Source: Gemmatimonadota bacterium (GTDB lineage: Bacteria; Gemmatimonadota; Gemmatimonadetes; Gemmatimonadales; Gemmatimonadaceae). From it: a DNA stretch of 45,267 nt. Of the stretch, positions 1 through 35,423 are shown piece by piece. Both the position numbers and the translations under genes were made by a program. The stretch's first letter is position 1, and each line of letters opens with the position of its first letter. Where the stretch lies: positions 1-45,267 of the forward strand of contig JARIEX010000011.1 in assembly GCA_031127095.1 (NCBI GenBank), written 5' to 3'. The notes below the pieces were generated by a model, which ran no database searches, had not been told where the DNA came from, and saw only the letters and a program-made list of their open reading frames with translations.

Positions 1-4338
<4,338 letters not shown>

Positions 4339-4339
<1 letters not shown>

Positions 4340-5142
4340 TGGCTACGCAACTTACTCCTGAAATCTCCTCGACTCCGGGTCCGTCGTTCGGGGTTACGTC
4401 GCCTGGGGGTTCGCACGCCACATCGGCGTCGTACCTCGAGCGGCGGGCCTGGATCGGGGAGTACTTTGACCGCACCGCCGCCGTGGCGTGGAAAACGCTC
4501 ACCTCGGACGCGCCGGTGTCCCGGATCCGCGCGTCGGTGCGGGCGGGGCGCGACCAGATGCGCCACACGCTGCTGCATTGGATCAACCCCGACCTGCACG
4601 GGGTGCGCATCCTCGACGCCGGCTGCGGCACGGGCACGCTGGCCATCGACCTGGCCCGCCGCGGGGCGGAGGTCGTCGCCATCGATCTCTCGCCCACGCT
4701 GGTGGCGCATGCGCGCGAACGGGCCGAGGCCGAGGGGGTCGAGATCGACTTCCGCAGCGGCGACATGCTCGACCCGGCACTCGGCACGTTCGACGTGATG
4801 GTCGCCATGGACTCGCTCATTCACTACGAACCGCGGGAGATGACGGCGGCACTGGCCGCGCTGGCCCCACGGATCCGCGAGCGGATGCTGGTGACCGTCG
4901 CACCCAAAACGCCGCTGCTGTCCGCGATGCATTTTGTGGGGAAGCTGTTTCCGCGGCAGGACCGGGCGCCGTCCATCGTGCCCGTGTCCGAACGGGACTT
5001 CCGAAATGGGCTGCTGACCACCCCTGCGCTCGACAGCTGGGGGATGGTGGGGACACGGTTGGTGGAGCGGGGGTTCTATCGCTCGATGGCCATTGCGCTG
5101 CAAAATGGATCGCTGGCCGCCGCGCGCGGCCCGCGGGCCTGA
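4339..5142 (+). CDS. bchM: Mg-protoporphyrin IX O-methyltransferase BchM
   Basis: 267-residue SAM-dependent methyltransferase that esterifies the ring-C propionate of Mg-protoporphyrin IX, giving the substrate of AcsF. The class I methyltransferase motif I is LDAGCGTGTLAIDLA at about residues 93-107, followed by the acidic VVAIDLS strand. The C-terminal part, including SALHFVGKLFP-like SAMHFVGKLFPRQDRAP, is typical of BchM/ChlM. The ATG at 4339 overlaps the bchL stop. The first 30 or so residues are Ser/Thr/Pro-rich and not conserved in the family as I know it. Confidence 0.95.
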
Positions 5143-5512: not shown

Positions 5513-6598
5513 ATGTACTCCACCACCACCGACCTGCCCGTTCGCGCCTACGACAACGTGAACGAGAGCACGAAGAACGCGCAGCAGGATGCGATGCTGA
5601 ATCCGCGGTTCTACACCACCGACTTCGGCAAGATCGACGCCCTGCGCATCAAGCCGGAACATCAGCAGATGTGGGACGACATTCTCGCCGAGTTCCGCCG
5701 CGATCCGAACAAAAACCACTTCAAGCGCAACGAGGAGTTCGACGCCGATTTTTCGGCCATGGACCCGTCGCTGCGCGAGCAGTTCATCGAATTTCTGGTC
5801 TCGTCGGTGACGGCCGAGTTCAGCGGCTGCATTCTGTACGCGGAAATCAAGAAGCGCATCAAGAACCCCGAAGTGCGCGAGCTGTTCGGGTTCATGAGCC
5901 GTGACGAAGGCCGCCATGCCGGCTTCATCAACCACACGCTCAACGACTTTGATGTCGCAGTCGATCTGAGTTTTCTCACGAAGGCGAAGAAGTACACGTT
6001 CTTCCAGCCGAAGTTCATCTACTACGCCACGTATCTGTCCGAAAAGATCGGGTACGCGCGCTATGTCACGATTTTCCGCAACTTCGAGAAGCAGCCGGAC
6101 AAGCGCTTTCACCCGATCTTCAAGTGGTTCGAGAACTGGTGCCTCGATGAGTTCCGCCACGGCGAAGCCTTTGCGGTGCTCATGCGCTCCAACCCCGAGC
6201 TGCTGGAAGGGCGCAACAAGCTCTGGATCCGCTTCTTCCTGCTGGCGGTGTTCTGCACGATGTACGTGCGCGATCACGCGCGCGCGCCGTTCTTCGCGCA
6301 CATGGGTATCGATGTCGACGATTACGACCGTCGGGTCATCAAGCTCACCAATCTCATCTGCCGCCAGGTGTTCCCGGACACCATCGACACCGAGAGTGAG
6401 GGCTTCTGGGCACTCATGGACCGGATGTGGCGGAATACGGATGCCATGCGGAAAGCCGAAGCCACCGGTGGGGTCGTCGCGACGGTGAAGGTCACCCTGC
6501 TCAAGGCGGCGAATGCGCTGACCTTCGTGCAGCTGTTCCTGCGGACGCCGCACCGGCAGGCGCTGCCCGCCGATGTCCGCATGCAGCCGGTCTGGTAA
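5513..6598 (+). CDS. acsF: Aerobic Mg-protoporphyrin IX monomethyl ester cyclase AcsF
   Basis: 361-residue diiron enzyme that forms the fifth (isocyclic) ring of bacteriochlorophyll using O2. Two carboxylate/histidine iron-binding stretches are visible: EFSGCILYAEIKKR followed by SRDEGRHAGF, and ENWCLDEFRHGEAF. The ferritin-like fold and length match the family. GAGGAGA lies 6 bases before the ATG. An oxygen-dependent cyclase in the main operon points to bacteriochlorophyll synthesis under (micro)oxic conditions; the anaerobic cyclase BchE is not in this window. Confidence 0.97.
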   Translation: MYSTTTDLPVRAYDNVNESTKNAQQDAMLNPRFYTTDFGKIDALRIKPEHQQMWDDILAEFRRDPNKNHFKRNEEFDADFSAMDPSLREQFIEFLVSSVTAEFSGCILYAEIKKRIKNPEVRELFGFMSRDEGRHAGFINHTLNDFDVAVDLSFLTKAKKYTFFQPKFIYYATYLSEKIGYARYVTIFRNFEKQPDKRFHPIFKWFENWCLDEFRHGEAFAVLMRSNPELLEGRNKLWIRFFLLAVFCTMYVRDHARAPFFAHMGIDVDDYDRRVIKLTNLICRQVFPDTIDTESEGFWALMDRMWRNTDAMRKAEATGGVVATVKVTLLKAANALTFVQLFLRTPHRQALPADVRMQPVW

Positions 6599-6603
6599 CG
6601 CCG

Positions 6604-8055
6604 ATGTCCGCGAAACCCGGGGTTTCCGTTCGCGTCTGGCTGACGCTTGGTACGCGGTTCATGCCGTTCGCCGACGTGGCGACGGCGGACATGCCGCTCA
6701 GCCGGTTGCTGCGGTTGTCCCTGTTTCAGCTGTCGGTGGGCATGGTGCAGACGCTGTTCGTGGGCACGCTCAACCGCGTCATGATCCTCGAGCTCCGGGT
6801 GCCCGCGTCGCTGGTGGCCATCATGCTGGCCATCCCGCTGCTGGCCGCGCCGTTCCGCGCCCTGATCGGTTTCAAGTCGGACACGCACAAGAGCATTCTC
6901 GGATGGAAGCGGGTGCCGTTCCTCTGGGGCGGCACCATGCTGCAGTTCGCCGGTCTGTCCATCATGCCGTTCGCGCTGCTGGTGCTTTCCGACGGCCCGC
7001 GGGTGGGCCCGTCTTGGATTGGGCACGTGGGCACCGCCATCGCGTTCCTGCTCGTGGGGGCGGGGGCGCACACCACGCAGACCGCTGGGCTGGCGCTGGC
7101 CACTGATGTCGTGTCCGAGGACAAACGGCCGCGCGTCATTGCGCTGATGTATCTGATGATGCTCATGGGCACGTTGATCAGCGCGCTCTTTCTCGAGTCG
7201 GTGCTGCGCGACTTCACCCCGCTGCGGCTCATTCAGGTCATTCAGGGCACGGCCGTGTTCACGATTCTGGTGAACATGATTTCGCTGTGGAAGCAGGAAG
7301 CCCGCGTCCGCGGCATCGTCGAGTACGCCAAGGGTGAGCGCCGACCCATGTTCCGCGAGGCGTGGCGCACGTTCGCCGCCGGCGGACAGGCCGTCCGGTT
7401 GCTGGTCGCGTCGGGGCTGGGCTTCTTCGCCTTCAATCTGCAGGACGTCCTGCTCGAGCCGTACGGCGGGGAAGTCCTCGGGTTGTCCGTGTCCCAGACC
7501 ACCATGCTCACCGCTATCATGGCCGTGGGTGCGGTGATCGCGTTCGGCATTTCAGCGTCACTGCTCCGTCGCCATCTCGATCCCATCCGGCTCGCCGCCA
7601 TCGGGGTCATGGTGGGCATCGTCGGCTTCGCGCTCATCGTCTTCGCCAGTCCCGTCGAGTCGGCCCTGATGTTCCGCACGGGCGTCGCGCTGATCGGCTT
7701 CGGCGAAGGGTTCTTCGGCGTCGGGACGCTGTCGTTCGCGATGCAACTGCGCGATCCGTCGCAGCACGGCATCGCGCTCGGGGCCTGGGGGGCGGTGTTC
7801 GCCACCGCCGAAGGGCTGTCATTCGCGCTCAGCGGCGTGCTGAAGGATTGGCTGTCCCATCTGGTGCAGCGTGGGGCCCTCAGCCCGGGGCTCAACGTGC
7901 CGTCGGTCCCGTATTCCGCGGTCTATCATCTCGAGATCCTGATGCTGTTTGCCACGCTGGTGGCACTGGGACCTCTCGTCTCCCGTCGCGTCGCCGGTCA
8001 AGCCGAGCGCGATCGAGCCGCCCGTTCGTTCGGGCTGGCGGACATTCCCGCTTGA
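6604..8055 (+). CDS. lhaA: Light-harvesting 1 assembly protein LhaA (PucC/BCH2 family transporter)
   Basis: 483-residue polytopic membrane protein of the BCH2/PucC branch of the major facilitator superfamily, needed in purple bacteria for assembling LH1 around the reaction centre, perhaps by delivering bacteriochlorophyll. About twelve hydrophobic segments can be seen. Family stretches include [42 protein letters not shown] near residues 80-105 and the [33 protein letters not shown] region near residue 365-395 (quoted in part). It starts at ATG 6604, five bases after the acsF stop; no strong Shine-Dalgarno is visible, so coupling to acsF is likely. The puh genes follow, the same lhaA-puhABC order as in proteobacteria. 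Confidence 0.94.
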
Positions 8056-8083: not shown

Positions 8084-8284
8084 ATGCAGTACATCGACGG
8101 AGCCCAGATTGCGCTCTACGCCTTCTGGATATTCTTCGCAGGGCTCATCATCTACATTCGGCGGGAAGACAAGCGGGAAGGGTATCCGCTTGACTCCCCG
8201 CAGGGACCGCGTGACGGGTGGCCCAAGTCGGCCGGTCCGAAAACGTACCTTCATCGGCCGCATGGCGGCGAGGAGACGCACTGA
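8084..8284 (+). CDS. puhA: Reaction-centre H subunit, transmembrane half (split PuhA, part 1)
   Basis: 66-residue protein equal to only the N-terminal part of a normal (about 250-260 residue) PuhA. It has the single transmembrane helix ([17 protein letters not shown], about residues 10-26) followed by the family signature [13 protein letters not shown] and [11 protein letters not shown]. It ends with a TGA that overlaps the ATG of the gene for the cytoplasmic half (TGATG at 8282-8286). GAGGAG at 8270-8275, inside this gene, is correctly spaced for the second start. The two halves together give 246 residues, about the whole usual length. This therefore looks like an evolved gene split rather than decay, although a frameshift sequencing error cannot be wholly excluded. 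CGGAG precedes the ATG by about 10 bases. Confidence 0.9.
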
Positions 8285-8826
8285 TGTCGGAGATCAAGGC
8301 GGTGCCGGTTGACGGCTACAATGGATCGCCGATGGTGCCCACCGGGAACCCGATGATTGACGGCGTCGGTCCCGCGTCGTGGGCGAATCGGGCCGATGAA
8401 CCCGATCGCACCTTCCATGGCGCGCCCAAAATCGTGCCGATGCGGCTCGATCCGACCTTCTCGGTGGCGTCGGGCGATCCCGATCCACGTGGACTGCCGG
8501 TTGAAGCGGTGGACAAGGTGGTGGTCGGCACGGTCATCGAACTCTGGGTGGATCGCGCCGAGCCGCAGGTGCGCTACTACGAAGTCCGGCTCACGGACTC
8601 CGATCGCCGCATCATGCTGCCGGCCGGCTACGTGCAGTGGCCGAACTTCGGCCTCTGGGGCAACGACCGGCTGCTCGTGAAGGCCATCACGGCGGCGCAG
8701 TTCGCCGACGTCCCGGCCATCCGTCGGGAGGATCAGATCACGCTGCTCGAAGAGGACAAGGTCATGGCCTACTTCGCGGGCGGTCATCTGTACGCCACGG
8801 CCGACCGGAGCGAGCCGATCATATGA
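8284..8826 (+). CDS. puhA: Reaction-centre H subunit, cytoplasmic half (split PuhA, part 2)
   Basis: 180 residues matching the cytoplasmic domain of PuhA. Signatures in order are PMIDGVGPASWANR (about residues 22-35), GLPVEAVDKVVVG and IELWVDRAEPQVRYYEV (PRC-barrel strands), then the C-terminal hallmark LLEEDKVMAYFAGGHLYA. There is no signal or membrane segment, so it must dock on the L/M subunits and on the separate transmembrane peptide encoded just upstream. It begins in a different frame from part 1, with its own Shine-Dalgarno and a one-base overlap. In purple bacteria this domain gates proton delivery to the QB site. The stop overlaps the puhB start (ATGA). Confidence 0.93.
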   Translation: MSEIKAVPVDGYNGSPMVPTGNPMIDGVGPASWANRADEPDRTFHGAPKIVPMRLDPTFSVASGDPDPRGLPVEAVDKVVVGTVIELWVDRAEPQVRYYEVRLTDSDRRIMLPAGYVQWPNFGLWGNDRLLVKAITAAQFADVPAIRREDQITLLEEDKVMAYFAGGHLYATADRSEPII

Positions 8827-9503
8827 CCGGTGCAGGGATGGGGCACGCCACGTACATCAAAGGAGTTCCCCATCCGCTCCCCGCCGGCGAGCATCTGCTT
8901 TGGGAGGGGGCGCCCGATGCGCGGGCAATGGCCGTGCATGTGTTTCATCGACGGCTCGTCGCGGCGTACTTCGGCGCCATGCTGCTCTGGTGGGCGGTCG
9001 CGACCACCGATCCGGTCACCAGTCCGGTGTTCGTCAGTGGTCTCGCGTTGCGCGTGCTCCTCACACTGGTCGTCCTCGGCATCGCCGAGGGGCTCGCGCG
9101 CGCGTCAGCCCGCACGTCGTGGTACGCGATCACCAACCGTCGGGTGGTGCTGCGGCTCGGGGTCGTACTCCCCATGTCGATCAATATCCCGTTTTCCATT
9201 ATCGATGGCGCACGCATCGGCACATTCGGTGACGGGACGGGACAGCTCGTGCTCACGCTGGGCAAGGCGCATCGCTTGGCGTACATCGCGTTGTGGCCGC
9301 ACTGTCAGGTGTTCCGTTTTACCCACCCGGAGCCGGTACTGCGCGGGTTGCGTGCTCCCAAGGCGATCAGCGCGCTGCTGGTGAACGCCGTGGCGGCCGC
9401 AGGGGAGACGGATGTGCAGATCACGCCGGCAACGACGGCGCCGCCGGGGCCGGCCAGCACCTCGCCAGCCGCGGTCGGATCCGCCTCATCGGTCGTGGCG
9501 TGA
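8823..9503 (+). CDS. puhB: Photosynthetic complex assembly protein PuhB
   Basis: 226-residue membrane protein with PH-domain-like organisation: GEHLLWEGAPD at about residues 24-34, two or three hydrophobic segments at about 45-95, then TSWYAITNRRVVLRLG with INIPFSIIDGARI. In purple bacteria PuhB helps reaction-centre assembly. The start ATG 8823 overlaps the stop of the H-subunit gene by four bases; the stop overlaps the puhC GTG. The last 35 residues are Ala/Pro/Thr-rich and probably disordered. Confidence 0.92.
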   Translation: MTGAGMGHATYIKGVPHPLPAGEHLLWEGAPDARAMAVHVFHRRLVAAYFGAMLLWWAVATTDPVTSPVFVSGLALRVLLTLVVLGIAEGLARASARTSWYAITNRRVVLRLGVVLPMSINIPFSIIDGARIGTFGDGTGQLVLTLGKAHRLAYIALWPHCQVFRFTHPEPVLRGLRAPKAISALLVNAVAAAGETDVQITPATTAPPGPASTSPAAVGSASSVVA

Positions 9504-10000
9504 GTCCGATCCATTTCGAGCCGGAACCGGGCGCGCGTACGGATGCGCCGCCCCTCCAGGTCCCCAAGCCGGCGCTGGTGATGGCGGCGGCGCTCATCGT
9601 GGTGGTGATCACCCTCGCGCTGTCCGCACGTGTGTTCGGTTTCGGCGCCTTCGCTGAACAGCCGCCGTCCGCGGTGATTGCCGCACGCCAACTCACGTTC
9701 ACCGACGCCAGCGACGGGGGCATTCTCGTGGTGGATGCCACCACGAAGGCGGTCGCGGCCTCGCTGCCACCCGGTACGAACGGATTCCTGCGCGGGGCGC
9801 TGCGCGCCCTCACTCGCGGCCGGTCTATGGCGGGCATCGGTCGCGAGGCGCCCTTTCAGTTGGTGCGCTATGCGGACGGCCGGCTGGTGCTGTCCGATCC
9901 CATGACGAAGCGCTCCGTCACCATCACGAGCTTCGGTGCCACGCAGGTCGAGGCGTTCGACCGTCTGCTCGTCCTGCCGCCGGCCGCCGCACCGCGCTGA
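9500..10000 (+). CDS. puhC: Photosynthetic complex assembly protein PuhC
   Basis: 166 residues from GTG 9500, which overlaps the puhB stop (GTGA). A cytoplasmic N-terminus carries FEPEPG, then one transmembrane segment (about residues 29-48) and a periplasmic domain with LTFTDASDGGILVVDA, FLRGALRALTRGR and the C-terminal GATQVEAFDRLL. These are recognisable PuhC elements. PuhC assists assembly of the RC-LH1 core. It is the last gene of the forward operon; the next gene is convergent, 50 bases away. Confidence 0.92.
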   Translation: MSPIHFEPEPGARTDAPPLQVPKPALVMAAALIVVVITLALSARVFGFGAFAEQPPSAVIAARQLTFTDASDGGILVVDATTKAVAASLPPGTNGFLRGALRALTRGRSMAGIGREAPFQLVRYADGRLVLSDPMTKRSVTITSFGATQVEAFDRLLVLPPAAAPR

Positions 10001-10715: not shown

Positions 10716-11843
10716 CTACGGTTGGTTGAGACTGCCCGCCGCACCCATGGCCGCGGCAGCCGGAACCGACCGGCTGCTGCTGGCCTTGACCGGTGGGACC
10801 ACCGGCGCGGCGCTCTTGGTGGCGCTGTCCATCGGAGCGATCGAGTCCATGGTCGGTCCGAGCCCCTGGAACGGCACGCCATTCCATTCGGCACGTCCCC
10901 ACAGCGCCGGGTAGTGCTTGACCATCTGCGCACCGTACAGCGGCTTGTAGGCCCCGTTGTGGCAGGTAACGCACTGGGCCTTCGGGGCATCGCCCTGCTG
11001 GCCGAGGCGCACCGCGGGATAGACCGGCTGCAGCGGCGCGAGGTAGTTCTGGTTCACGTCGCGCAGCATCAGGATGCCGTGGTACGCGGTGACACGTGCC
11101 GGCGGCGCTTCCTTCCAGCTGGCGAACTGCCGGGAGTTGTGGCAGTACGTGCAGTTCACCCCCAGCGAGCGCGACTGCGACATCATGAGCGCGTACGTCC
11201 ACTCGGTCTGCTTCACCGAGCTGCGGTTCATGTTCGACGGCGCCACTTCACGCGACACGACGCGTGCGCCGTCACGATCGAGATAGTGCCGCAGATAGTC
11301 GGTCTGGCTGGAGTAGAACCAGAGGCCGTTCGGCAGCGGCTTCCCCATGTGGCAGGTGTAGCAGGTCACGCCGGTGTTTTTCACGTGCTGTGAATACTGT
11401 CCGTTGATCTGCCGGGTCATCTGCAGCATCCGACGGGCCACCAGTTTCGCGTAGAGCGGCTTGCCGTTGGGGAGCGTATCCGACGCGAGGTTGGCGATGT
11501 TGTGGCAGTAGGCACAGTTGCCGGTGCCAGCCACCCACGTGCTCATCGCCACCATGGTGCGGTTGAACTCGCCCACCGAGATATCGTTGAGCACCTGTAC
11601 GTTCTTCCACGGCAGCGGCCCGGGCGGCGACGCGCCGGCCGGGGGCAGCGGCGCGGGAATCTTGACGGCGGCGAACTTCGCTTTCAGATCGCCGTGGTCG
11701 TAATTCTGTTCCATCGCGGTGCCGCGATACCCCACCTGCACCGAGTCGGTCTTGGCATCGCCGCAGGCGGCGAGCGAGACCAGCACGAGCGGGGTGGCGA
11801 CCGCCACGATGGAACGGCGAAGCGTGCGCGTGGTGCGGCTCAT
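10716..11843 (-). CDS. pufC: Reaction-centre tetraheme cytochrome c subunit PufC
   Basis: 375-residue periplasmic cytochrome that re-reduces the oxidised special pair. Four CxxCH haem motifs are seen: CAYCH (110-114), CYTCH (161-165), CTYCH (231-235) and CVTCH (291-295). The Met ligands lie in upstream helices, for example MVAMSTW and LQMTRQ. The N-terminus has a signal with lipobox LAAC (Cys27), so it is likely lipid-anchored. The C-terminal 45 residues are Ala/Ser/Pro-rich. ATG 11843 overlaps the pufM stop by four bases; GGAGGA precedes it. The frame is open further upstream but that part reads across pufM. Confidence 0.97.
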
Positions 11844-13021
11844 GGCGTCTTTCCTCCGACGGGCGGAGCAGGCGGCGTAGCGGGCGGCGTGGCCGCCGCG
11901 GGAGCGGCGGCGGGGGCAGCGACTGGCGTCACGACAGCGGTCGAGTCGGTGGTCAGCGAGTCCGTCGGCGCCATCAGGGCGGCCGAGTCGGGCATCACGG
12001 CCGGCTGCGGCACGACGTAGGTCGGGAAGGAATCCGGCGCGGTCCCCTGATACCGTCCGCGCAGCAACTCCTGCTGCTCCGGGGTCAGCGTGTTCTGGTC
12101 CGGATACGGCGCGACCAGGCCATGCTTGACGCCCCACAGATACCAGTTGTCCACCACGGTGCCGGTGAGCAGAATGCCGATCCCGCCGGTGAACGTGGTC
12201 AGGACGGCAAACCACCAGGCCCAGCGATGGATCGACTCCATCGTGGCGTTGAAGCCCATCGTCCAGCGCCAGAACAGCATGGAACGCTCGGCGGCCGTAC
12301 CACGATCGGTGATCTGTTCGATTTCACGCTCGCCACCCAGCCGAGCCACGGCGAGGATCGTCGCGGCATGCATCGCGAAGAGCACCGCGCTGCCGTACAG
12401 GAACACGATCGAGAGCGCGTGGAACGGATTGTAGTACAGGTTGCCGTAGCGGATCGAGAACGCCGACGTCCAGTCGAGGTGCGGGAACAGCCCGAACGGC
12501 ACCATTTCACTGAAGCTGCCGACGAGCAACGGCTGCAGGAAGAAGCAGAGGAACAGGAAGATCGCGGAGGCGAACGCCCAGGGCAGGTGCGTGCCCATGT
12601 TGAGCGCGGTCGCGCGGCGGTACACACGCACCCACCAGAGCAGGATGCTGACGGTGAGGAAGAAACCCGCCATGAGGTACCAGCCGCCCTGCTGCAGCGG
12701 CGGCACGTGCAGCCCGTACTGGGGTGGCGGCGGCTCGAGGGCGAGCCACGGCAGCTGCCGGATGAACTCGATGGGATCCCACCCAACGGAGGCCCACATG
12801 TTCAGGCCGATGATCTCGAAGGCGAGAAAGCCGAAGAGCAGCGAAAACGTGCCGGCCGTGCCGAGATACACCGGCCCGATCTGCGCATCGCCGAACTTGC
12901 CGGCGAGATACGAGAAGGTGCCGCTGCCCACCCGGAGGCCGGGGGAGTCTTCGATCGGCAGTCCCGCTTCGGGGACGGTGCGGACCTGCACACGGGTGAA
13001 GAGATTCTGATATTCGAGCAT
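11840..13021 (-). CDS. pufM: Reaction-centre M subunit PufM with a C-terminal extension
   Basis: 393-residue five-helix reaction-centre subunit. [24 protein letters not shown] carries the bacteriochlorophyll-ligand histidines (His181 and His201, split quote). The non-haem iron ligands are expected at His218, Glu233 or Glu235, and His265. Family members usually end near residue 305-325. Here about 70 residues follow, from [12 protein letters not shown] onward, rich in Pro, Ala, Thr and Val and ending in an Ala/Pro run. This tail should lie in the periplasm next to PufC, since the C-terminus of M faces that side. GAGGAG precedes ATG 13021; pufL ends 14 bases upstream. Confidence 0.97.
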
Positions 13022-25936: not shown

Positions 25937-27184
25937 CTACTCGTAGCGCAGCGCTTCGATCGGATCGAGTCGGGCAGCGCGTCGGGCGGGCACCATGCCG
26001 AACACGATGCCGATGCCAACCGACACCACGACGGCGATGATGGTGAGTGTCACCGGCACCGGCGCGGTGACATCCAGCGCAAACGACGCCGCGCGCCCCA
26101 TCGCGAGACCCACCAGAATGCCGATCACGCCCCCGATCCCGGTCAGCGTGCAGGCCTCGATGAGGAACTGCAGCAGGATGTCACGGCGCGTGGCACCGAG
26201 CGCTTTGCGGACCCCGATCTCGCGGGTGCGGCTGGTGACCGACACGGTCATGATCGCCATCACGCCGATCCCGCCCACCAGCAGCGCCACCCCGGAGAGT
26301 ACGATCATCACGAGGAAGAACACACTCGTGATGCCGTTGAAGGTGTCGAGAATCTGATCCTGCGTTACGAGATCGAAGCTGTTCATGCTGCCGGGGCGCA
26401 GCCCGCGCATCTCACGGAGCGCCATCACGGCCGCCCCCTGCGCTTCGGCCACACTCACACCGGCGCGCGGCTTGACCGGAATCCAGAGCGCGTTGGTTTT
26501 ATCGATGGGGAAGCTGCGCTCGAGAAACCGGTACGGCACCACGGCGCCCACCGATTGTCCCGGGGGCGCAAAAATGTTGCCGGGTTCCTGCCACAGGCCG
26601 ATCACCTCGAGCGGGCGCCCGCCGATACGCACGAGCCGCCCGAGCATGCGCTCGCGGCCGAACAGGCGCCGCGCGGTCTCTTCCTGCAGCACGACGACCG
26701 CGGTGCCGGCGGAGAGTTCGTTCCGGGTAAACCACCGCCCTTCCACGAGCTCGCCGCCCTGAATGCGCGTGAACCCGTCGTCGGCGCCGAAGATCGCCAT
26801 CGACTGCGAGCGCGTGCCCTCGGATTCGATGCGCGCCAGCGTCTGCCCCCACAGGGAGGCGTACGCCACTTCCGGCAGCCGCCGCAACCGCTCGGCCTCG
26901 CGCTCGGCGAGATCGGGTCGGATGCGGACCTCCTTGGGCAGGTTGTCCGGATTGAGCGGCGTTTGCGAGAACTTCTTGAGTACGTAAAACGTGGTGGGGC
27001 CGGCCACTTCGATCGTGGTGACGATCTGATTGCGGATCCCGTCCACGATGGCCGCCATGGCCATGACCGTGGCCACGCCGATGACCACGCCAAGAATGGT
27101 GAGCGACGAACGCAGCTTGCTCACGCGCAGCGCCTCGAACGCGAGGCGGATGTTCTCGGACACCGCGCCGGCACGCATCGCCAC
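25937..27184 (-). CDS. MacB/FtsX-type ABC permease (fourth of four)
   Basis: 415 residues from GTG 27184 (ATG 27178 is possible). Architecture is MacB-type without an ATPase domain: one transmembrane helix near residues 25-50 (LRSSLTILGVVIGVATVMAM), a large periplasmic MacB_PCD domain, and three C-terminal helices with the family signature TSRTREIGVRKALGATRRDI and a final RLDPIEALRYE. It would pair with the ATPase encoded at 31011-31817. It is last in the exporter operon and three bases after the preceding stop. Confidence 0.9.
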   Translation of the reverse strand: MAMRAGAVSENIRLAFEALRVSKLRSSLTILGVVIGVATVMAMAAIVDGIRNQIVTTIEVAGPTTFYVLKKFSQTPLNPDNLPKEVRIRPDLAEREAERLRRLPEVAYASLWGQTLARIESEGTRSQSMAIFGADDGFTRIQGGELVEGRWFTRNELSAGTAVVVLQEETARRLFGRERMLGRLVRIGGRPLEVIGLWQEPGNIFAPPGQSVGAVVPYRFLERSFPIDKTNALWIPVKPRAGVSVAEAQGAAVMALREMRGLRPGSMNSFDLVTQDQILDTFNGITSVFFLVMIVLSGVALLVGGIGVMAIMTVSVTSRTREIGVRKALGATRRDILLQFLIEACTLTGIGGVIGILVGLAMGRAASFALDVTAPVPVTLTIIAVVVSVGIGIVFGMVPARRAARLDPIEALRYE

Positions 27185-27187
27185 CGT

Positions 27188-28432
27188 TCAGGTCTCCGCG
27201 CGCATCGCGGTGATCGGATCGAGCTTGGCCGCGCGGGCCGCCGGATACACGCCGAAGAGCACCCCGATACCCGCGCCGAGCGACAGGGCCAGCGCGACGC
27301 TCCAGGGCGTGACGCGGGCGGGCAGGGGCGAGAAGGCGGCGATCGCGACGGCGAGCGCCCAGCCCGCGGCCACGCCGAGCAGACCGCCCGTGAGTGCCAG
27401 CGCGACGGACTCGGCGAGGAATTGCCGGCGGATGTCGGTGGCGGTGGCCCCCATCGCCTTGCGCAGCCCGATTTCGTGCGTGCGCTCCGTGACCGCCATC
27501 AGCATGATGTTCATGATCACGATGCCGCCCACGAGCACGCCGATGGCGACGACGGCCGGCACGACGGCGAAGAGCACCTTGGTGAGCTGCTTCCAGAAAT
27601 CCACGAGGGCATCGGCCGTGCCGACGTCGAAGTTGTCGCGGTCGGAGGGGCGTAGGCGCCGCGCCAGCCGCATCGCTTCCTGCGCGCGCGCCATGGCCGG
27701 GCCCACTTGGTCGGCCTCCGCCATCTTCACCGAGATGGTCGTGTTCAGGCGGCGCCCATAGATCCCCTCGAAGGCCGAGATGGGCATCAAGGTGAAACCG
27801 TCGAACGACTGGCCCAGCACGCGTCCCTTGCGCGCCACCACGCCGACGATCGTGAACCGCTGTCCCATGATGCGCACGTCCTGCTCGATGGCGGACGCGC
27901 CCTGAAACAGATTCTGCGCCACGTCGGCCCCGACCACGACCACGTTGCGCCGCTCGCGTACGTCGATGTCGCTGAGCGGGCGCCCCGCCGTGAAGCGGTA
28001 ATCCTGCACGGTCTGATAGTCGGCCGTGACGCCGAAGATCAGCACACTGCCGAGCGTGCGGTCGCGCCACACGAGGTCGGCCTGCGGCGTGGGCCACCCG
28101 GATTGCAGGGCGATCGCCTGCGCATCGGGGAGCGCGGTGCGGACGGCGTCCGCGTCGCGCTGGTCGACACGGGGCCGACGCTGGAGCAGGCGGAACTGAT
28201 CGTCGGTGAAGAGGCCGAGGCTGATCGGCAACCGCCGGACCTGGAAGGTGTTCATGCCGATCATGGCGTCGGCGATGTTCTCCTTCACGTACGCATTCAT
28301 TCCTTGAATGATCGCCACAACGGCCACCAGAAACCCTACCGACACCACGATCCCCAGCAGGGTGAACACGGTGCGCAGTGGGTTCACCCGCAGCTGCAGG
28401 AGGGAGAGGAGGACGATGTCGGCGAAGCGCAT
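27188..28432 (-). CDS. MacB/FtsX-type ABC permease (third of four)
   Basis: 414 residues from ATG 28432, ten bases after the stop of the preceding permease. LRTVFTLLGIVVSVGFLVAV forms the first helix; the periplasmic domain begins MNAYVKENIADAMIGMNTFQVRRLP (split). The C-terminal half has VTERTHEIGLRKAMGATATDI, LLGVAAGWALAVAIAAFSPLP and AAKLDPITAMRAET. It is closest in style to the first permease (30945-29704), whose periplasmic domain starts similarly (VEEDFAARLIGANTFTLRR), suggesting two alternating permease types. Confidence 0.9.
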   Translation of the reverse strand: MRFADIVLLSLLQLRVNPLRTVFTLLGIVVSVGFLVAVVAIIQGMNAYVKENIADAMIGMNTFQVRRLPISLGLFTDDQFRLLQRRPRVDQRDADAVRTALPDAQAIALQSGWPTPQADLVWRDRTLGSVLIFGVTADYQTVQDYRFTAGRPLSDIDVRERRNVVVVGADVAQNLFQGASAIEQDVRIMGQRFTIVGVVARKGRVLGQSFDGFTLMPISAFEGIYGRRLNTTISVKMAEADQVGPAMARAQEAMRLARRLRPSDRDNFDVGTADALVDFWKQLTKVLFAVVPAVVAIGVLVGGIVIMNIMLMAVTERTHEIGLRKAMGATATDIRRQFLAESVALALTGGLLGVAAGWALAVAIAAFSPLPARVTPWSVALALSLGAGIGVLFGVYPAARAAKLDPITAMRAET

Positions 28433-28442
28433 GGCGGGCGGG

Positions 28443-29699
28443 CTACTCGTGCCGCAACGCCTCCACGGGGTCGAGCTTCGAGGCACGCAGCGCGGGAATC
28501 ATGCCGAAGGCCACGCCGGTGACGGCGCTGGCGATCAGGGCCGTGGCCACGATGCCGGCGGGCAGACTTGCCGGAATGGCGCTGTTGCTGCGAATGACCC
28601 ACGCCAGCAACGCGCCGATGGCGAGCCCGATCAGCGCTCCGATGCTCGTGAGCGTGGCAGCCTCCACGAGGAACTGCCAGCGGATGGTGCCGGCGGTGGC
28701 GCCCAGCGCCTTACGCACCCCGATCTCGCGGGTGCGTTCGGTAACGGAGATCATCATGATGGCCACCACGCCAACGCCGCCCACCAGCAGGGCGACCGCC
28801 GACAGGGCCAGCCCCACGGCGAAGATCGCGCCGAAGAGCTGGTCGAAGGTTTCCATGATGCGGTCCTGCTCGACGAGATAGAAATCGTTGCGTTCGCCGG
28901 GGCGCAGCCCGCGGCGGGCCCGCATCGCAGCGAGCACTTCATCCATCACCTCGCCCTGCGCGGCCGTCTGCTCGGGGCGCACCATGAGGCTGAGGCCATT
29001 GCGCGACAAGTCCAGCTGGCGGATGGCCGCCTGCATGGGGATGATCGCGCGCGGGTTGTCGGGTCCTTTGCCACTGAGCGACTTCAGGAAGCCGGCGCGC
29101 GGGGTGTAGATGCCGATCACGGTGAACTGCCGCCCACTGATCATGATCTGCTTGCCGATCGGCTCGGATTCGCCGAACAGCTGCGTCTTGAGCGTGTCGT
29201 TGATCAGTACGACCGGCTGCCCCGCGTCATACTCGGTGCGGGTGAAGTTGCGTCCCGGCGAGATATCCGACGCATCGACTTCGGGCCACTCCACGCTGTA
29301 CGCGTCGTAGCCCACGTTGTCGATGCGGCTGTCGCGATAGGCGAAATTTCCCTGGCCGCCGGACAAGCCGATCACGGCGGCGACGCCGGGGATCCGCTTG
29401 ATCATCTCCCATTCAGCCAGCGACACCTGCGGGTTGCGCCGGTCGGGGCATTTTTCGTCGGTGCCGTCGCAGCTGTTGAACCCCGGATTGCGGCGTTGCA
29501 CGATGAACGTGGTGGCGCCGATTTCCTCGAGGTCCTTCTGGAAGGAGGCACGGATTCCCGTGACCACCGCCCCCATCGCGACCACCACGAACACGCCGAT
29601 GGCCACGCCTGCGATGGTGAGCCCCGCACGCACTTTGTTGGAGCGGATGGAATCGAGCGCCATCGACACCCCTTCCAGCACCAGTAACAGGCGATTCAT
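28443..29699 (-). CDS. MacB/FtsX-type ABC permease (second of four)
   Basis: 418 residues. First helix KVRAGLTIAGVAIGVFVVVAM, periplasmic domain with a short Cys-containing insertion (FNSCDGTDEKCPDRRNP, two cysteines that could form a disulfide), then ERTREIGVRKALGATAGTIR and SKLDPVEALRHE at the C-terminus. It resembles the fourth permease more than its immediate neighbours. It starts four bases after the stop of the first permease, clearly in one operon. Confidence 0.9.
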   Translation of the reverse strand: MNRLLLVLEGVSMALDSIRSNKVRAGLTIAGVAIGVFVVVAMGAVVTGIRASFQKDLEEIGATTFIVQRRNPGFNSCDGTDEKCPDRRNPQVSLAEWEMIKRIPGVAAVIGLSGGQGNFAYRDSRIDNVGYDAYSVEWPEVDASDISPGRNFTRTEYDAGQPVVLINDTLKTQLFGESEPIGKQIMISGRQFTVIGIYTPRAGFLKSLSGKGPDNPRAIIPMQAAIRQLDLSRNGLSLMVRPEQTAAQGEVMDEVLAAMRARRGLRPGERNDFYLVEQDRIMETFDQLFGAIFAVGLALSAVALLVGGVGVVAIMMISVTERTREIGVRKALGATAGTIRWQFLVEAATLTSIGALIGLAIGALLAWVIRSNSAIPASLPAGIVATALIASAVTGVAFGMIPALRASKLDPVEALRHE

Positions 29700-29703
29700 G
29701 CGC

Positions 29704-30945
29704 TTACTCCTGTCGCAGGGCGGCGATGGGGTCCAACCGCGAGGCGCGGCTGGCGGGGTAGAGTCCGGCCCCGATGCCGACGCCGGCGCCGGTGAGGAGG
29801 GCGGCGGCGATGGACCACGGGGCCACGGCTGCCGGCAGCGGCGTAAAGGCGGCGATCGTTTCCGCGAGACCGATGCCGAGGGCGATCCCGATGGCGGCGC
29901 CCAGCGTGCTCAGCGTGGCGGCCTCCACCAGGAACTGCGCCATGATGTCCTTGCGCTTGGCCCCAAGCGCCTTGCGTACGCCGATCTCCCGCGTGCGCTC
30001 GGCAACGGCTACGAGCATGATGTTCATGATGACCATCGCGCCGACCACGAGACTGATGGCGGGCAGGGCGGTGCCGAACAACACGAGGCGGCCTTTGAGC
30101 TGCTTGATGAACCCGAACGCCGCATCCTGCGTGACCAGGCCGAAGTCGTCGGGCTCGGCGGCGCGCAAACCGCGGAAGGCCCGCAGCGCGCTGCGCGCCG
30201 CTTCCATCCCCTCCGCGAGATCCTGCTGATTCGGCGCCTGCACGATCAACGACGAAATGTCACGCTGCGGCCGGATGATCCGGCCCATCGGTGACGTGTA
30301 CGGCGCAATGGCGAGGCGGTCGAGGGAGAAGCCGAACACCGACCCCTGCTTCTCGATCACGCCGATCACGGTGAATGGCACGCCGGCGATGCGGAGCTGG
30401 CGTCCTTCCGGATTCAGTCCCGGAAAGAAATGCTCCGCTACCTCGACGCCGATCACCAGCACCGGTGCACTGGTGCGCACTTCCTGGTCAGAGAACGCCC
30501 GCCCCTGCGTGACGGCAAATTTTTTGATGGCGAAGTAGTTGGCGTCGGTGGCCACCGACTGCACCTGCCGCGGGCGCGCGCCGGGCGCGGACGCGTACTT
30601 GAACGTTTCGCTCGCGATCGTAGCGCGCATGTTCGCCGGGAGCGCGGCGCGCACCACGTCGATCTCCGGCATCCGGATCAGCGGGCGCCGCTGCGCCAAT
30701 CGTGCGTCGGCCCCCCGGTTACCGCCGGGCCCCACATTGCTGAAGCGGCGTAACGTGAAGGTGTTCGCGCCGATGAGTCGGGCGGCGAAATCCTCCTCCA
30801 CGTAGCGCCCCATCCCTTCCACGATGGACACGACGGCGATGAGAAACATCACGCCGATGGTGACCCCGAGCAGGGTAAAAGCACTCTTGAGTTTCTGAAC
30901 CCGGATCTGGGACAGCGCCAGACCGATCGCGTCTCTAGTCTTCAC
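29704..30945 (-). CDS. MacB/FtsX-type ABC permease (first of four)
   Basis: 413 residues: KLKSAFTLLGVTIGVMFLIAVVSIVEGMGRYVEEDF (split) at the N-terminus, periplasmic MacB_PCD domain, then ERTREIGVRKALGAKRKDIMAQF and SRLDPIAALRQE. It follows the ATPase gene after a 65-base gap that holds a perfect hairpin, the only sizeable gap in the operon. Confidence 0.9.
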   Translation of the reverse strand: MKTRDAIGLALSQIRVQKLKSAFTLLGVTIGVMFLIAVVSIVEGMGRYVEEDFAARLIGANTFTLRRFSNVGPGGNRGADARLAQRRPLIRMPEIDVVRAALPANMRATIASETFKYASAPGARPRQVQSVATDANYFAIKKFAVTQGRAFSDQEVRTSAPVLVIGVEVAEHFFPGLNPEGRQLRIAGVPFTVIGVIEKQGSVFGFSLDRLAIAPYTSPMGRIIRPQRDISSLIVQAPNQQDLAEGMEAARSALRAFRGLRAAEPDDFGLVTQDAAFGFIKQLKGRLVLFGTALPAISLVVGAMVIMNIMLVAVAERTREIGVRKALGAKRKDIMAQFLVEAATLSTLGAAIGIALGIGLAETIAAFTPLPAAVAPWSIAAALLTGAGVGIGAGLYPASRASRLDPIAALRQE

Positions 30946-30972
30946 GTTGGATTAAATGACAGCCTCTGCAGG

Positions 30973-30996
30973 TCCGGCCGGTGAATACCGGCCGGA
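30973..30996. other. Perfect ten-pair hairpin between ATPase and first permease
   Basis: TCCGGCCGGT-GAAT-ACCGGCCGGA is an uninterrupted ten-pair stem with a four-base loop. No U tract follows on either strand, so a simple Rho-independent terminator is unlikely; a processing or stability element between the two parts of the operon is more plausible. Confidence 0.65.
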
Positions 30997-31010
30997 TCGT
31001 ACCGCACCAC

Positions 31011-31813
<803 letters not shown>

Positions 31814-31817
<4 letters not shown>

Positions 31818-33097
31818 GACTTCGTTCCGGCGGCGGCTTTCTTCTCCTCGGCCTTGGGCGTCTGGATCAGCGCGCCGTCCTTGAGTTCGCGGATGGCCTG
31901 GTAGGTACCGGCTACGATCGTCTCGCCCGCCTTGAGACCACTGAGCACTTCGAAGTGCCGCTCGCCCGCGATCCCGACCTTGACCTGACGGAAGCTGACC
32001 TTCTTGTCCGGCCCCACCACGAACACCCCTTCCACGTCGCGCTTACCCACTTCCTTGGCCGGCTCACGTCCCACGGTCACGGCGGAATCGGCATTGGGCA
32101 GCTCCTCGTTCTCGCGCACGGTCAGGGCGATGATCGGAATGCTGAGCACCTTCGTCCGCGACGCCGTGACGATCTTGGCGGTGGCCGAGAAGTCGGGGCG
32201 GGTTTCGAGCGGCGGGTTCACGAGCTCGACGCGCACTTCGTAGTCGATGGCTTGATCGCCGGTGTTCGCGGCGGCGGTCTTGGTGACCGAACTGTTCGAG
32301 ATCTCGACCACGCGACCGACGAAGGTGGTGTCCGGGAAGGCGTCGATCTGGATGAGCGCGGAATCGCCCACGCTGATGCGCGCCACGTCGGTCTCGTCCA
32401 CCTTGACCTTCGTTTCCAGCACGCTCATGTCACTGATCGTCATGAGCGTGGCGGCGTCCTTGTTGAGCGTGCCCATGATGGCCGTTTCGCCCTCTTCCAC
32501 GTTGAGCCGCGTGATCTTCCCGCTCATGGGCGCGACGATCGTGGTGCGGTTCAGCGCCTGACGCGCATCGCGCACCGAGGCCACCGCCTGGTCTACGCTG
32601 AAGCTCGCCGCGGCGGCCAACTCCTTGTTCACGTCGGCCTGCGTCTTGAGCTGCTCGAGCTGCTCGTCGCTCACGAGGTCCGGCGACTGCTGCTTGATCT
32701 TGAGGGACCGTTCGTAGTTGCGCTGCGCTTGCAGCAGGCTGGCGCGCGATTGCGCCGACTGAGCGCGCGACGACGCCAGAAAGGCCTCCGACCGCTGCAA
32801 TGCGGCGGTGACCTGCTCGGGGTCGATCTGGAGCAGGAACTGCCCCTTCTTGACGACGTCGCCTTCCTTCACGGCAAGGCGCACGATCTTGCCCGTCACG
32901 TCGGCCGACACATCGACCTTGGTGCGCGGCTGGATCTGGCCGCTCGCGGTGACAGACGCCACGAGGTCGCGTGTTTCGACGGCTTCGATGCGCACCTCCA
33001 CCGGCTTGACGCTGTTCTTCTTCGCACTCAGGAACGCCAGCGCGGCGATGCCCGCCACGACCACGCCACCAATCCCGATCTTCACACCTTTCGTCAT
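31814..33097 (-). CDS. Periplasmic membrane fusion protein (MacA/HlyD type)
   Basis: 427 residues. N-terminal membrane anchor [23 protein letters not shown] (about residues 7-24), lipoyl halves around [19 protein letters not shown] and [16 protein letters not shown], with a coiled-coil hairpin between them ([20 protein letters not shown]...). The beta-barrel and membrane-proximal domain follow. It bridges the inner-membrane exporter to the TolC-like protein encoded 12 bases upstream. C-terminal residues are Lys/Ala-rich. Confidence 0.92.
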
Positions 33098-33109
33098 GAC
33101 TGCTCTCTG

Positions 33110-34594
33110 TTAGCGGATGGGCCGGCCGACGGCGTTTTCAAGCGCGGCAAATGCCCGTTGGACATCATAAATGGCGGTAATGCGATCGGTCTCGGCGCGT
33201 TCGTAGTCCCCGCGCGCCTGCACGAGATCGACGATGCTGATGGCGCCGACGCGGTAGCGCTCCTGCGCCAGCGACAGGGCCGTGCGGGCCGTGCGCACGT
33301 TCTGCTCCTGCAGCACCACCGTCTGCTGGGCCGTGCTCAGCGAGAGGGAGGCCGCGGTCACGTCGGCGGTGATGCGCAGCTCCTGCGCGCGCACGTCGTT
33401 CTGCGCATTCCGGCGCTGCACGCTGGCCTGCTCGATCTGCTGCTCCCGACGGAAGCCGTTGAAGACGGGCAGGGAAAAGCTGGCGGAGAGGCTGTACGGA
33501 TTGCGTGTGAAGTCGAGCGGATATTTGCCCTGGGCAGCGCGGATGGCGGCTTCCTGCGCCGACGAGAACGTGATCGCGTTGCACTGCGTCAGATTGTTGG
33601 GCAGGCCGAGACGGTCACGCACCTCCTCGGTGCGGATGCACGAGGCCTTGCCGGCCAGGGTGCTCGTCTGGCTCTGGTTGATCAGCAGCCCGGTGTTGGT
33701 GAAGCGGTTGGTAAACGCCGACACGTTGGCCGAGAGGGACATCGACGGGTAGTAGGCGCTGCGTGCCGACGCCTGCGAGCGGCGCGCGGCTTCTTCGCGG
33801 GCGCGGAAGGCGCCGAGCGCCGGGTTGGAGCGCCTGGCGAGGTCCATCACGGCCGCGAGATCGATCACCGGGGGGGCGGGGAGCACCGGGTCGAGCTTGG
33901 CGTCAGGGGTGGGGTCGATACCGATCTGCTGGAAGAGCCGCACGATTTCGATGGCGGCCTGGTTGCGCGCATTCAGCGACGCGACGCGCTGCTGGCCGTC
34001 GGCGACTTCCGCACGCTGCACATCGAGCTGGGTGCCGGAGCCCACCTGCAGGCGGGCGCGGGCCAGCTGCAACTGCGTCTGCGTGGTGGCTTGCAGGGTG
34101 TCCTGCAGCGAGGCGCGCGCCTGCGCCTGCAGGGCCGAGAGGTACTGGTTGGTGACATCGTTGCGCACGCGCTGTTCAGCGGTGGCGATGTCCGCTTCCG
34201 TGGCGTTCTGATTGGCAAGGATGGCACGCCGGTCGTTGATCGACGCCATCGACACGTTCAGCGAGGCCGAGACGCTGGCATCGGTGGACAGCTGGTCGTT
34301 GGTGGAGCCGAACCCCTGACCCTGAAAGAAGGTCTGACGGCCTTCGCGATAGCCGCCACCCATGCTGGTGTTCACGCTGGGGAGGAAGGCGCCATTCGCG
34401 GCGCGCACGGCCGCGGCGGCCGTGCGCCGGGCGTTCGTGGAGCTTTGCAGCGCGGGATTGTTGCGCCGCGCCAGCGCGAGGGCGTCGGTGAGGGTCAGGA
34501 CGGCACCGGGGGCCGGCGCTTGCGCGACGGCGGCTGCCGGAAGGGCCCCGCCAACGGCCAGGCCAAGCGCGAGCGCAACAGCGTGAATTCTCAT
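33110..34594 (-). CDS. TolC-family outer-membrane efflux protein
   Basis: 494 residues with a signal peptide (MRIHAVALALGLAVGGALPA, cut near AVAQA). Two outer-membrane-efflux repeats follow: LTLTDALALARRNNPALQS near residue 35 and VIDLAAVMDLARRSNPALGAF near residue 245, each leading into long helices (GSGTQLDVQRAEVADGQQRV, RYRVGAISIVDLVQARGDYE). A two-Cys loop (ASCIRTEEV...TQCNAITF) near residues 322-345 is unusual. It is first in the exporter operon; ATG 34594 was chosen because the signal peptide begins there. Confidence 0.93.
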   Translation of the reverse strand: MRIHAVALALGLAVGGALPAAAVAQAPAPGAVLTLTDALALARRNNPALQSSTNARRTAAAAVRAANGAFLPSVNTSMGGGYREGRQTFFQGQGFGSTNDQLSTDASVSASLNVSMASINDRRAILANQNATEADIATAEQRVRNDVTNQYLSALQAQARASLQDTLQATTQTQLQLARARLQVGSGTQLDVQRAEVADGQQRVASLNARNQAAIEIVRLFQQIGIDPTPDAKLDPVLPAPPVIDLAAVMDLARRSNPALGAFRAREEAARRSQASARSAYYPSMSLSANVSAFTNRFTNTGLLINQSQTSTLAGKASCIRTEEVRDRLGLPNNLTQCNAITFSSAQEAAIRAAQGKYPLDFTRNPYSLSASFSLPVFNGFRREQQIEQASVQRRNAQNDVRAQELRITADVTAASLSLSTAQQTVVLQEQNVRTARTALSLAQERYRVGAISIVDLVQARGDYERAETDRITAIYDVQRAFAALENAVGRPIR

Positions 34595-34657
34595 AGAGTG
34601 CAAACGGGTGGGAGACGACGTCTGAGTGGCGTACGCGCCACGGACTGTGATGGTTTC

Positions 34658-34679
34658 AAAAAATTGGACCGATGGGTCC
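34658..34679 (-). terminator. Rho-independent terminator after the secreted unknown
   Basis: On the minus strand GGACC-CATC-GGTCC (34666-34679) is followed after two bases by six U residues (34658-34663). The stem is short (five pairs) but the U tract is perfect. It lies 19 bases after the stop at 34698 and insulates that gene from tolC. An inverted repeat TGGCG-TACG-CGCCA (34627-34640) nearer tolC could be a regulatory site. Confidence 0.65.
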
Positions 34680-34697
34680 GGACGTCGACCGGCAGCG

Positions 34698-35423
34698 TCA
34701 ACGCGGCACATCGTCGCGGATCGCCTCGAGACGGCGGGCCGGAATCGACAGGCGCAGCAACCGCCCGTCCGCGTCGGTCCACACCAGCCGGCGATCACCA
34801 TCGCCGACCACCACCCGCCACCGACGGGCGTCGCGCCGTCCCCCCGCCAGCGTGATCGTGTCCGACACCGCCTCGAGGACGACGCGCACGGCACCCTGAC
34901 CGTTGGCCGTCGGGGTGAGGCTCGGCAGAGTCACGCCGCTGTCCACGGCGAGCGCCCGGTTGTGCACCAGCAGCGCGTACTGGACGACACCGTCGTCTTC
35001 CACCACCACCGCACCCGGGCGCAGCAAGTACTCGCGTGCCGCTTCGCCGGTGGAGCTGCGCGCGAGCGTCGCAAAGCGCCCCCGCACACGCTGACCGCCC
35101 AGCCGCAGCGTCACATCGGCCCCTTGGCGCGCCTCGACGGAGTAGCGCACCGGCGTCCCGGCGGAATCCGTCTCGAGGCGCATGGCCACGCGGCGATCGC
35201 CGATGGCCGATTCCGACCGGACTTCCAGCGTGCCGCCGTCCGGCGACTGCACGCGTTGCACCGAAAACTGTTCGCGCCCCGCGCGCTGCCCGTTGATGAG
35301 CAGCGTGAAGCTGCCAACGTCCAGCCGTCCGGGTTGCGCGAACGGTGCGGCCGGCCGCGACGCGGCGAGCAGCGGGAGGAGCACGATCGGCAGCACGCGC
35401 CGGGGGACGGAAAACACAGGCAT
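34698..35423 (-). CDS. Secreted protein of unknown function
   Basis: 241 residues from ATG 35423. N-terminal signal peptide (VLPIVLLPLLAASRPAAPFA), then a beta-rich domain beginning LDVGSFTLLINGQRAGREQF and ending LRLSIPARRLEAIRDDVPR. The pattern of repeated short strands (GTPVRYSVEARQGADVTLRL, RRWRVVVGDGDRRLVWTDADG) resembles periplasmic or outer-membrane-associated beta-barrel-like domains; I do not assign a family. It is a single-gene unit with its own terminator, divergent from the sensor kinase. Confidence 0.78.
   Translation of the reverse strand: MPVFSVPRRVLPIVLLPLLAASRPAAPFAQPGRLDVGSFTLLINGQRAGREQFSVQRVQSPDGGTLEVRSESAIGDRRVAMRLETDSAGTPVRYSVEARQGADVTLRLGGQRVRGRFATLARSSTGEAAREYLLRPGAVVVEDDGVVQYALLVHNRALAVDSGVTLPSLTPTANGQGAVRVVLEAVSDTITLAGGRRDARRWRVVVGDGDRRLVWTDADGRLLRLSIPARRLEAIRDDVPR

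Follow-up and report, generated by a model that had tools for sequence, protein, structure and literature searches.

The reaction centre of Gemmatimonas phototrophica has a divided subunit H, with a chain Hc of about 19.9 kDa and a chain Ht of about 7.7 kDa, according to passages of a 2023 review (PMC10214105, citing Qian et al. 2022). In Gemmatimonas groenlandica, the two genes are named puhA1 and puhA2 in passages of PMC12817894. Both chains are known in the photosystems of these two relatives (passages of PMC10214105 and PMC12817894; PDB entries). In the entries 7o0u to 7o0x, chain H1 has 67 residues and chain H2 (“RC-Hc”) has 181, and the chains of 9h22 and 9h19 are named “reaction centre Ht” and “Hc”; we assigned 9h22 to G. 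groenlandica from PMC12817894 and the matching chain names, not from the PDB title. The split itself is already published, and in that sense the finding is known. Passages of PMC12817894 date it to shortly before the divergence of two genera and raise a related idea, the split as an assembly aid, which the authors themselves call speculation. Two gene orders of the gemmatimonadotal cluster are distinguished in passages of PMC9426454, subtype I with acsF downstream of lhaA and the puh genes between them, and subtype II with acsF upstream of lhaA; they are interpreted there as two evolutionary routes after one acquisition by the ancestor of the phylum.

The window (the whole stretch of 45,267 nucleotides analysed here) is one of the 229 contigs of a 3.5 Mb assembly and carries a photosynthesis gene cluster (Table 1). 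In this cluster, puhA1 extends from an ATG at 8084 to a TGA at 8282-8284 and puhA2 from an ATG at 8284-8286 to a TGA at 8824-8826. The two genes are in different frames, and the A of the puhA1 TGA is also the A of the puhA2 ATG. The first-pass annotation had described this arrangement, with the TGATG overlap, a correctly placed GAGGAG and a joint length of 246 residues (66 + 180), and its description proved exact when compared with the sequence and the ORFs. It had also assigned to the first gene only the membrane helix and first segment of PuhA. The membrane part stood, but Ht is more than a membrane helix, as about 35 residues are kept beyond it (judged by eye, without membrane-helix prediction).

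Table 1. Features of the puhA1/puhA2 locus, with coordinates in the window.
Feature	Position	Strand	Description
acsF, upstream of lhaA (subtype II order)	5513..6598	+	TIGR02029 AcsF, 442.1 bits
lhaA ORF (PUCC family), directly upstream of puhA1	6427..8055	+	PF03209, 439.5 bits from residue 114
puhA1 (Ht)	8084..8284	+	66 aa, membrane-spanning part of subunit H of the reaction centre; coordinates include the TGA
GAGGAG, ribosome-binding-site-like	8270..8275	+	8 bases 5' of the puhA2 ATG
TGATG stop-start overlap of puhA1 and puhA2	8282..8286	+	Read from the sequence; junction type common to 32/43 genomes including that of the window
puhA2 (Hc)	8284..8826	+	180 aa, cytoplasmic part with PRC-barrel; stop TGA included
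puhB	8823..9503	+	NF040894 puhB, 166.5 bits; ATG overlaps the puhA2 stop (ATGA)
ORF containing puhC	9293..10000	+	TIGR03054, 147 bits, match at residues 90-226

Both products belong to the PuhA family by sequence. Ht matched positions 6-71 of the TIGR01150 puhA model (262 positions) with 76.8 bits, under the curated cut-off of 200, and Hc matched positions 86-262 with 232.2 bits, above this cut-off. In the Pfam model PRCH (134 positions), Ht covered 5-67 and Hc 82-133; since the two halves match consecutive stretches of PRCH, the break lies within one domain. The order lhaA, Ht, Hc, puhB, puhC gives the pair the position of the PuhA family between lhaA and puhB, with two ORFs in different frames instead of a single continuous polypeptide. 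The best PDB matches were separate chains, 7o0u_H1 (E 6.4e-37) and 9h22_H (E 1.8e-34) for Ht, and 9h22_K (E 9.5e-99) and 7o0u_H2 (E 1.2e-95) for Hc. The adjacent genes of the window are homologous to the solved Ht and Hc, and its H subunit is a two-chain variant, not the one-piece form. The structure of G. phototrophica with separate H polypeptides, which the first-pass annotation had mentioned, does exist (PDB 7o0u, chains H1 and H2), and its proposal that the split is functional has been shown in near relatives, whose chains were solved separately (7o0u H1/H2, 9h22 H/K). Its further proposal on the purpose of the split, by which the cytoplasmic domain could assemble as a soluble partner, is conjectural, like the published idea of an assembly aid. 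The acsF gene is located upstream of the lhaA ORF and adjacent to it, as in subtype II; the lhaA ORF, whose true start is probably internal, had no NCBIfam match at 1e-8.

Two other observations were made in the window. The PufM ORF (11843-13021, minus strand) matched its model over residues 1-302 and continues for about 90 extra residues, among which Ala, Pro and Thr are abundant. Beside the cluster, at 25940-34894, genes all on the minus strand encode four consecutive MacB/FtsX-type permeases, an ABC ATPase, an HlyD-like protein and an outer-membrane efflux protein.

We searched 395 Gemmatimonadota genomes. The puhA model had a match at E <= 0.001 in 92 of them, and the score was above its cut-off in 42. 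The 43 genomes examined correspond to these 42 and to G289, in which both halves are present (Hc 176 bits); for the other 49 of the 92, among the matches listed, it was mainly the second half of the model that matched. A genome of the window's genus (G372) gave a single weak match, and one locus that begins inside Hc (L049) stands outside the judgement between split and one-piece. Ht and Hc were encoded by two ORFs in 43/43 examined genomes, three of which are single-contig (G039, G074 and G129). An uninterrupted puhA, which the first-pass annotation had named as an argument against its own reading when proposing this comparison, was recovered in none of them (0/43). Five Gemmatimonadota had appeared as candidates for an unsplit puhA, with one long match each, yet their halves are separated by a stop with a new ATG downstream of it. 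The 43 genomes belong to three families, that of the window (f1, 35 genomes), another of the same order (f2, one) and a third of the same class (f5, seven). The split is thus wider than the two genera named in print, as it covers three family codes and both gene orders; in the text passages of the open-licence literature, we found no report of a phylum-wide split. A contig titled Candidatus Kuenenia stuttgartiensis (L040, CALQGY020000004.1) also carries a gemmatimonadotal cluster with a split puhA and joins the window's genus in the tree; it is probably a mislabelled bin.

The junctions were of several types: TGATG in 32 genomes, ATGA in four, in-frame in five and gapped in two. In the in-frame type, found in the lineages g18, g30 and f2, the stop (TGA, TAG or TAA) is followed by three bases and then by an in-frame ATG. 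In the gapped type, the distance from the first base of the stop to the ATG is 22 or 53 bases; the start is uncertain for the 53-base gap (G245), where a GTG fits too. G039, which encodes 7o0u_H2 letter for letter (181/181), and G074, which does so for 9h22_K (180/180), both have the TGATG junction of the window. A Shine-Dalgarno consensus match of at least 4 bases precedes the second ATG in 41/43 genomes versus 28% of control positions, and one of at least 5 bases in 27/43 versus 8% (19,873 control positions inside Hc genes); as the genomes are related, these counts are not 43 independent cases.

The break was found at the same linker in all 10 split rows aligned. Median lengths were 66 residues for Ht (61-116, with the start set by a simple rule) and 180 for Hc (170-197). 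Between the conserved EGY and PxGxP anchors that flank the break, we counted a median of 50 residues (Ht and Hc together) in the 41 split rows that could be judged, 2/43 split and 27/64 one-piece rows having no visible anchors. The count was 74-100 in six f5 loci (L016, L029, L073, L075, L077 and L078) and in L017 (G245), compared with 47-52 in all remaining split loci that were judged. Compared with the one-piece median of 59 (37 judged rows), most f1 genomes thus have a linker shorter by about nine residues, and f5 has a longer one. The extra residues of L073 and L075 form a low-complexity tail of Ht.

Outside the phylum, 27/385 Alphaproteobacteria and 47/399 Burkholderiales genomes exceeded the puhA cut-off; the sampling left out Myxococcota, Eremiobacterota and the purple sulfur bacteria except two Ectothiorhodospira. 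The first-pass annotation had treated puhA as a single gene in Proteobacteria, and this holds in our sample, as PuhA was in one frame in 73/74 of these genomes (in G551, one 342-aa frame was matched in two pieces), the last one being cut by a contig end. This last case, G1155, had been a candidate for a proteobacterial split and was rejected, its match (3845-4402) reaching the end of the contig, which is 4407 bases long. No split puhA was thus found among the 73 judged proteobacterial loci. Nine proteobacterial genomes searched through their loci, two of them among the 74, were all one-piece. One gammaproteobacterial MAG (L066, CALBPI010000084.1) has a fast-evolving one-piece PuhA, which falls among the split rows in the PuhA trees and with Proteobacteria in the tree of AcsF, LhaA and PuhB.

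Both gene orders were present among the split loci. The subtype II order was found in 18/18 f1 loci with both acsF and lhaA, and the subtype I order in five f5 loci, in the f2 locus and also in 24/24 proteobacterial loci with both genes. In f5, the flanks were long enough to judge the order in 5/7 genomes. L151 has no acsF within the available stretch. The f2 locus (L002/L061) corresponds to MAG S09.Bin022, the single exception named in the passages of PMC9426454. As both orders carry the split puhA, the split would predate the move of acsF, and it is probably older than both gene orders. A break present under both orders fits one acquisition and calls for an earlier split than the date proposed in passages of PMC12817894.

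The number of origins was addressed with trees of PuhA and of its neighbours. In a quick PuhA tree of 107 rows (43 split and 64 one-piece), the 43 split rows formed one set together with L066 (support 99) and two state changes were needed; holding the 43 split rows together gave a higher likelihood and was not rejected (AU 0.886). When the long rows L066 and L079 were removed, the remaining 42 split rows formed one clade (support 98). The careful PuhA tree, restricted to 81 rows (26/107 were dropped, 12/43 split and 14/64 one-piece), separated the three g18 rows from the remaining split rows and required three state changes, and one change sufficed in 8% of the bootstrap trees only; the careful tree of PuhA itself shows no single origin. 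The tree of AcsF, LhaA and PuhB, built with no puhA columns by a quick method without bootstrap (L161, in which two genes are wanting, being left out), had a single branch (SH-aLRT 100) between 24 Gemmatimonadota and 25 proteobacterial loci. Since one branch parts the two sets, split versus one-piece is a single change on this tree.

We consider it very probable that puhA1 and puhA2 specify separate Ht and Hc chains standing for the one-piece PuhA, and that they go back to one early split, this latter part being less sure. In detail, the two genes would be translated as separate chains of the reaction-centre H subunit in a phototrophic bacterium of the Gemmatimonas type. A ribosome ending puhA1 at the TGA would most likely re-initiate at the overlapping ATG, aided by GAGGAG, and such re-initiation could hold Ht and Hc near a 1:1 ratio. 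Hc, as a peripheral subunit, would then dock at the cytoplasmic side of the reaction centre, and Ht and Hc together would replace the one-piece PuhA there, as the solved structures show for two relatives. The break common to the 43 phototrophic Gemmatimonadota most likely had a single origin, to judge from the trees and the gene order, with less certainty than the two-chain state itself. As a guess, it could have started with a nonsense change and re-initiation at a nearby ATG, later small deletions leading to TGATG; by their junction letters, the five in-frame junctions in g18, g30 and f2 would fit such an origin.

Other readings have to be weighed against this one. The window comes from a fragmented assembly of 229 contigs, and a sequencing or assembly error, or the decay of the gene, could have broken a single puhA. 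We give this practically no credence, as the break recurs in all 43 examined genomes, including the single-contig ones, and both halves are conserved and match solved separate chains; an error or a pseudogene is refuted by the solved structures of two relatives, which share the junction and have two H chains. Programmed frameshifting at the overlap could alternatively yield a full-length PuhA, with the separate chains as by-products. The two genes do overlap in 36/43 genomes, many of which have a second frame already open far 5' of the junction (in the window, by 67 bases), so that a frameshift would be possible there; in G170, where the genes are without overlap, it is open 581 bases before the junction. 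In five genomes, however, the halves share one frame behind a TGA, TAG or TAA and could be joined by nothing but read-through of the stop. In G245, the second frame is closed at the junction and becomes open 14 bases downstream of the first stop base. The solved Ht and Hc chains are also separate, and we regard frameshifting as very improbable, if slightly less so than an error. Repeated splitting within Gemmatimonadota, in a linker that tolerates breaks, is more plausible than either but still unlikely. The variety of junctions (32 TGATG, 4 ATGA, 5 in-frame, 2 gapped) and the position of the three g18 rows in the careful PuhA tree, with its three changes, speak for it; against it, the same linker is broken in the 10 aligned split rows, 0/73 judged proteobacterial loci are split and, in the neighbour-gene tree, a branch has the split loci together on the same side. 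The split thus likely arose once in Gemmatimonadota, before the two gene orders diverged.

A separate question is whether the two-chain H, a small membrane peptide with a PRC-barrel protein, could be the older state, the one-piece proteobacterial PuhA resulting from a later gene fusion. We know of no outgroup PuhA that could decide the direction. The PUCC tree was rooted by letting the paralogues LhaA and Bch2 serve as outgroups to each other, in a first run without L151 and in a second after removal of fast rows (8/27 Bch2, 15/49 LhaA and 8/8 PucC). For Bch2, both runs gave one nested clade (100) of all sampled Proteobacteria with Gemmatimonadota basal, which fits a fusion. In the LhaA half, Gemmatimonadota were at the base in the first run, in which LhaA of Proteobacteria as one clade was not rejected (AU 0.848); once the fast rows were removed, they nested inside Proteobacteria (95/86), against a fusion, and the two halves disagreed on the rooting. 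This rooting is prone to long-branch error through the fast gemmatimonadotal rows, and the branch between the paralogues LhaA and Bch2 is very long, which also weakens the case for a fusion. Room for a fusion is left by Chloroflexota and Eremiobacterota, reportedly without puhA in passages of PMC6920907 and PMC6664022, which for this reason provide no PuhA outgroup to fix the direction. The published view, in passages of PMC12817894 and PMC9426454, is a transfer from Proteobacteria. We thus find a fusion improbable, less so than frameshifting and more so than repeated splitting; a one-piece gene transferred from Proteobacteria and then split in the gemmatimonadotal stem is likelier than the reverse. 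The PUCC tree also included a third PUCC-family gene in two Gemmatimonadota genomes (L232, G135:C1:36620-37837; L237, G289:C297:5390-6613). These two genes clustered with six PucC-like genes of Proteobacteria (support 99) and apart from the LhaA of their own genomes, and may represent a separate transfer.

Two adjacent ORFs for puhA provide a simple marker whatever the place of acsF, being found in 43 gemmatimonadotal loci versus one-piece genes in 73 judged proteobacterial loci. The split H also allows a natural test of the extent to which subunit H must be covalently joined. Among known systems, the RC-dLH photosystem of G. phototrophica (7o0u, 7o0v, 7o0w and 7o0x) resembles the window in having two chains from two genes with a TGATG junction; the Ht and Hc sequences have diverged. 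The puhA1/puhA2 pair of G. groenlandica (9h22 and 9h19) likewise shares the two genes and the junction, with diverged sequences. The one-piece PuhA of purple bacteria (TIGR01150; e.g., PDB 3wmm chain H) is homologous over both halves and has the same neighbours lhaA and puhB, but it is encoded by one gene instead of two, with a median of 59 residues between the EGY and PxGxP anchors (37/64 rows judged) compared with 50 in the window, and acsF is downstream of lhaA in the proteobacterial loci with both genes, whereas it is upstream in the window.
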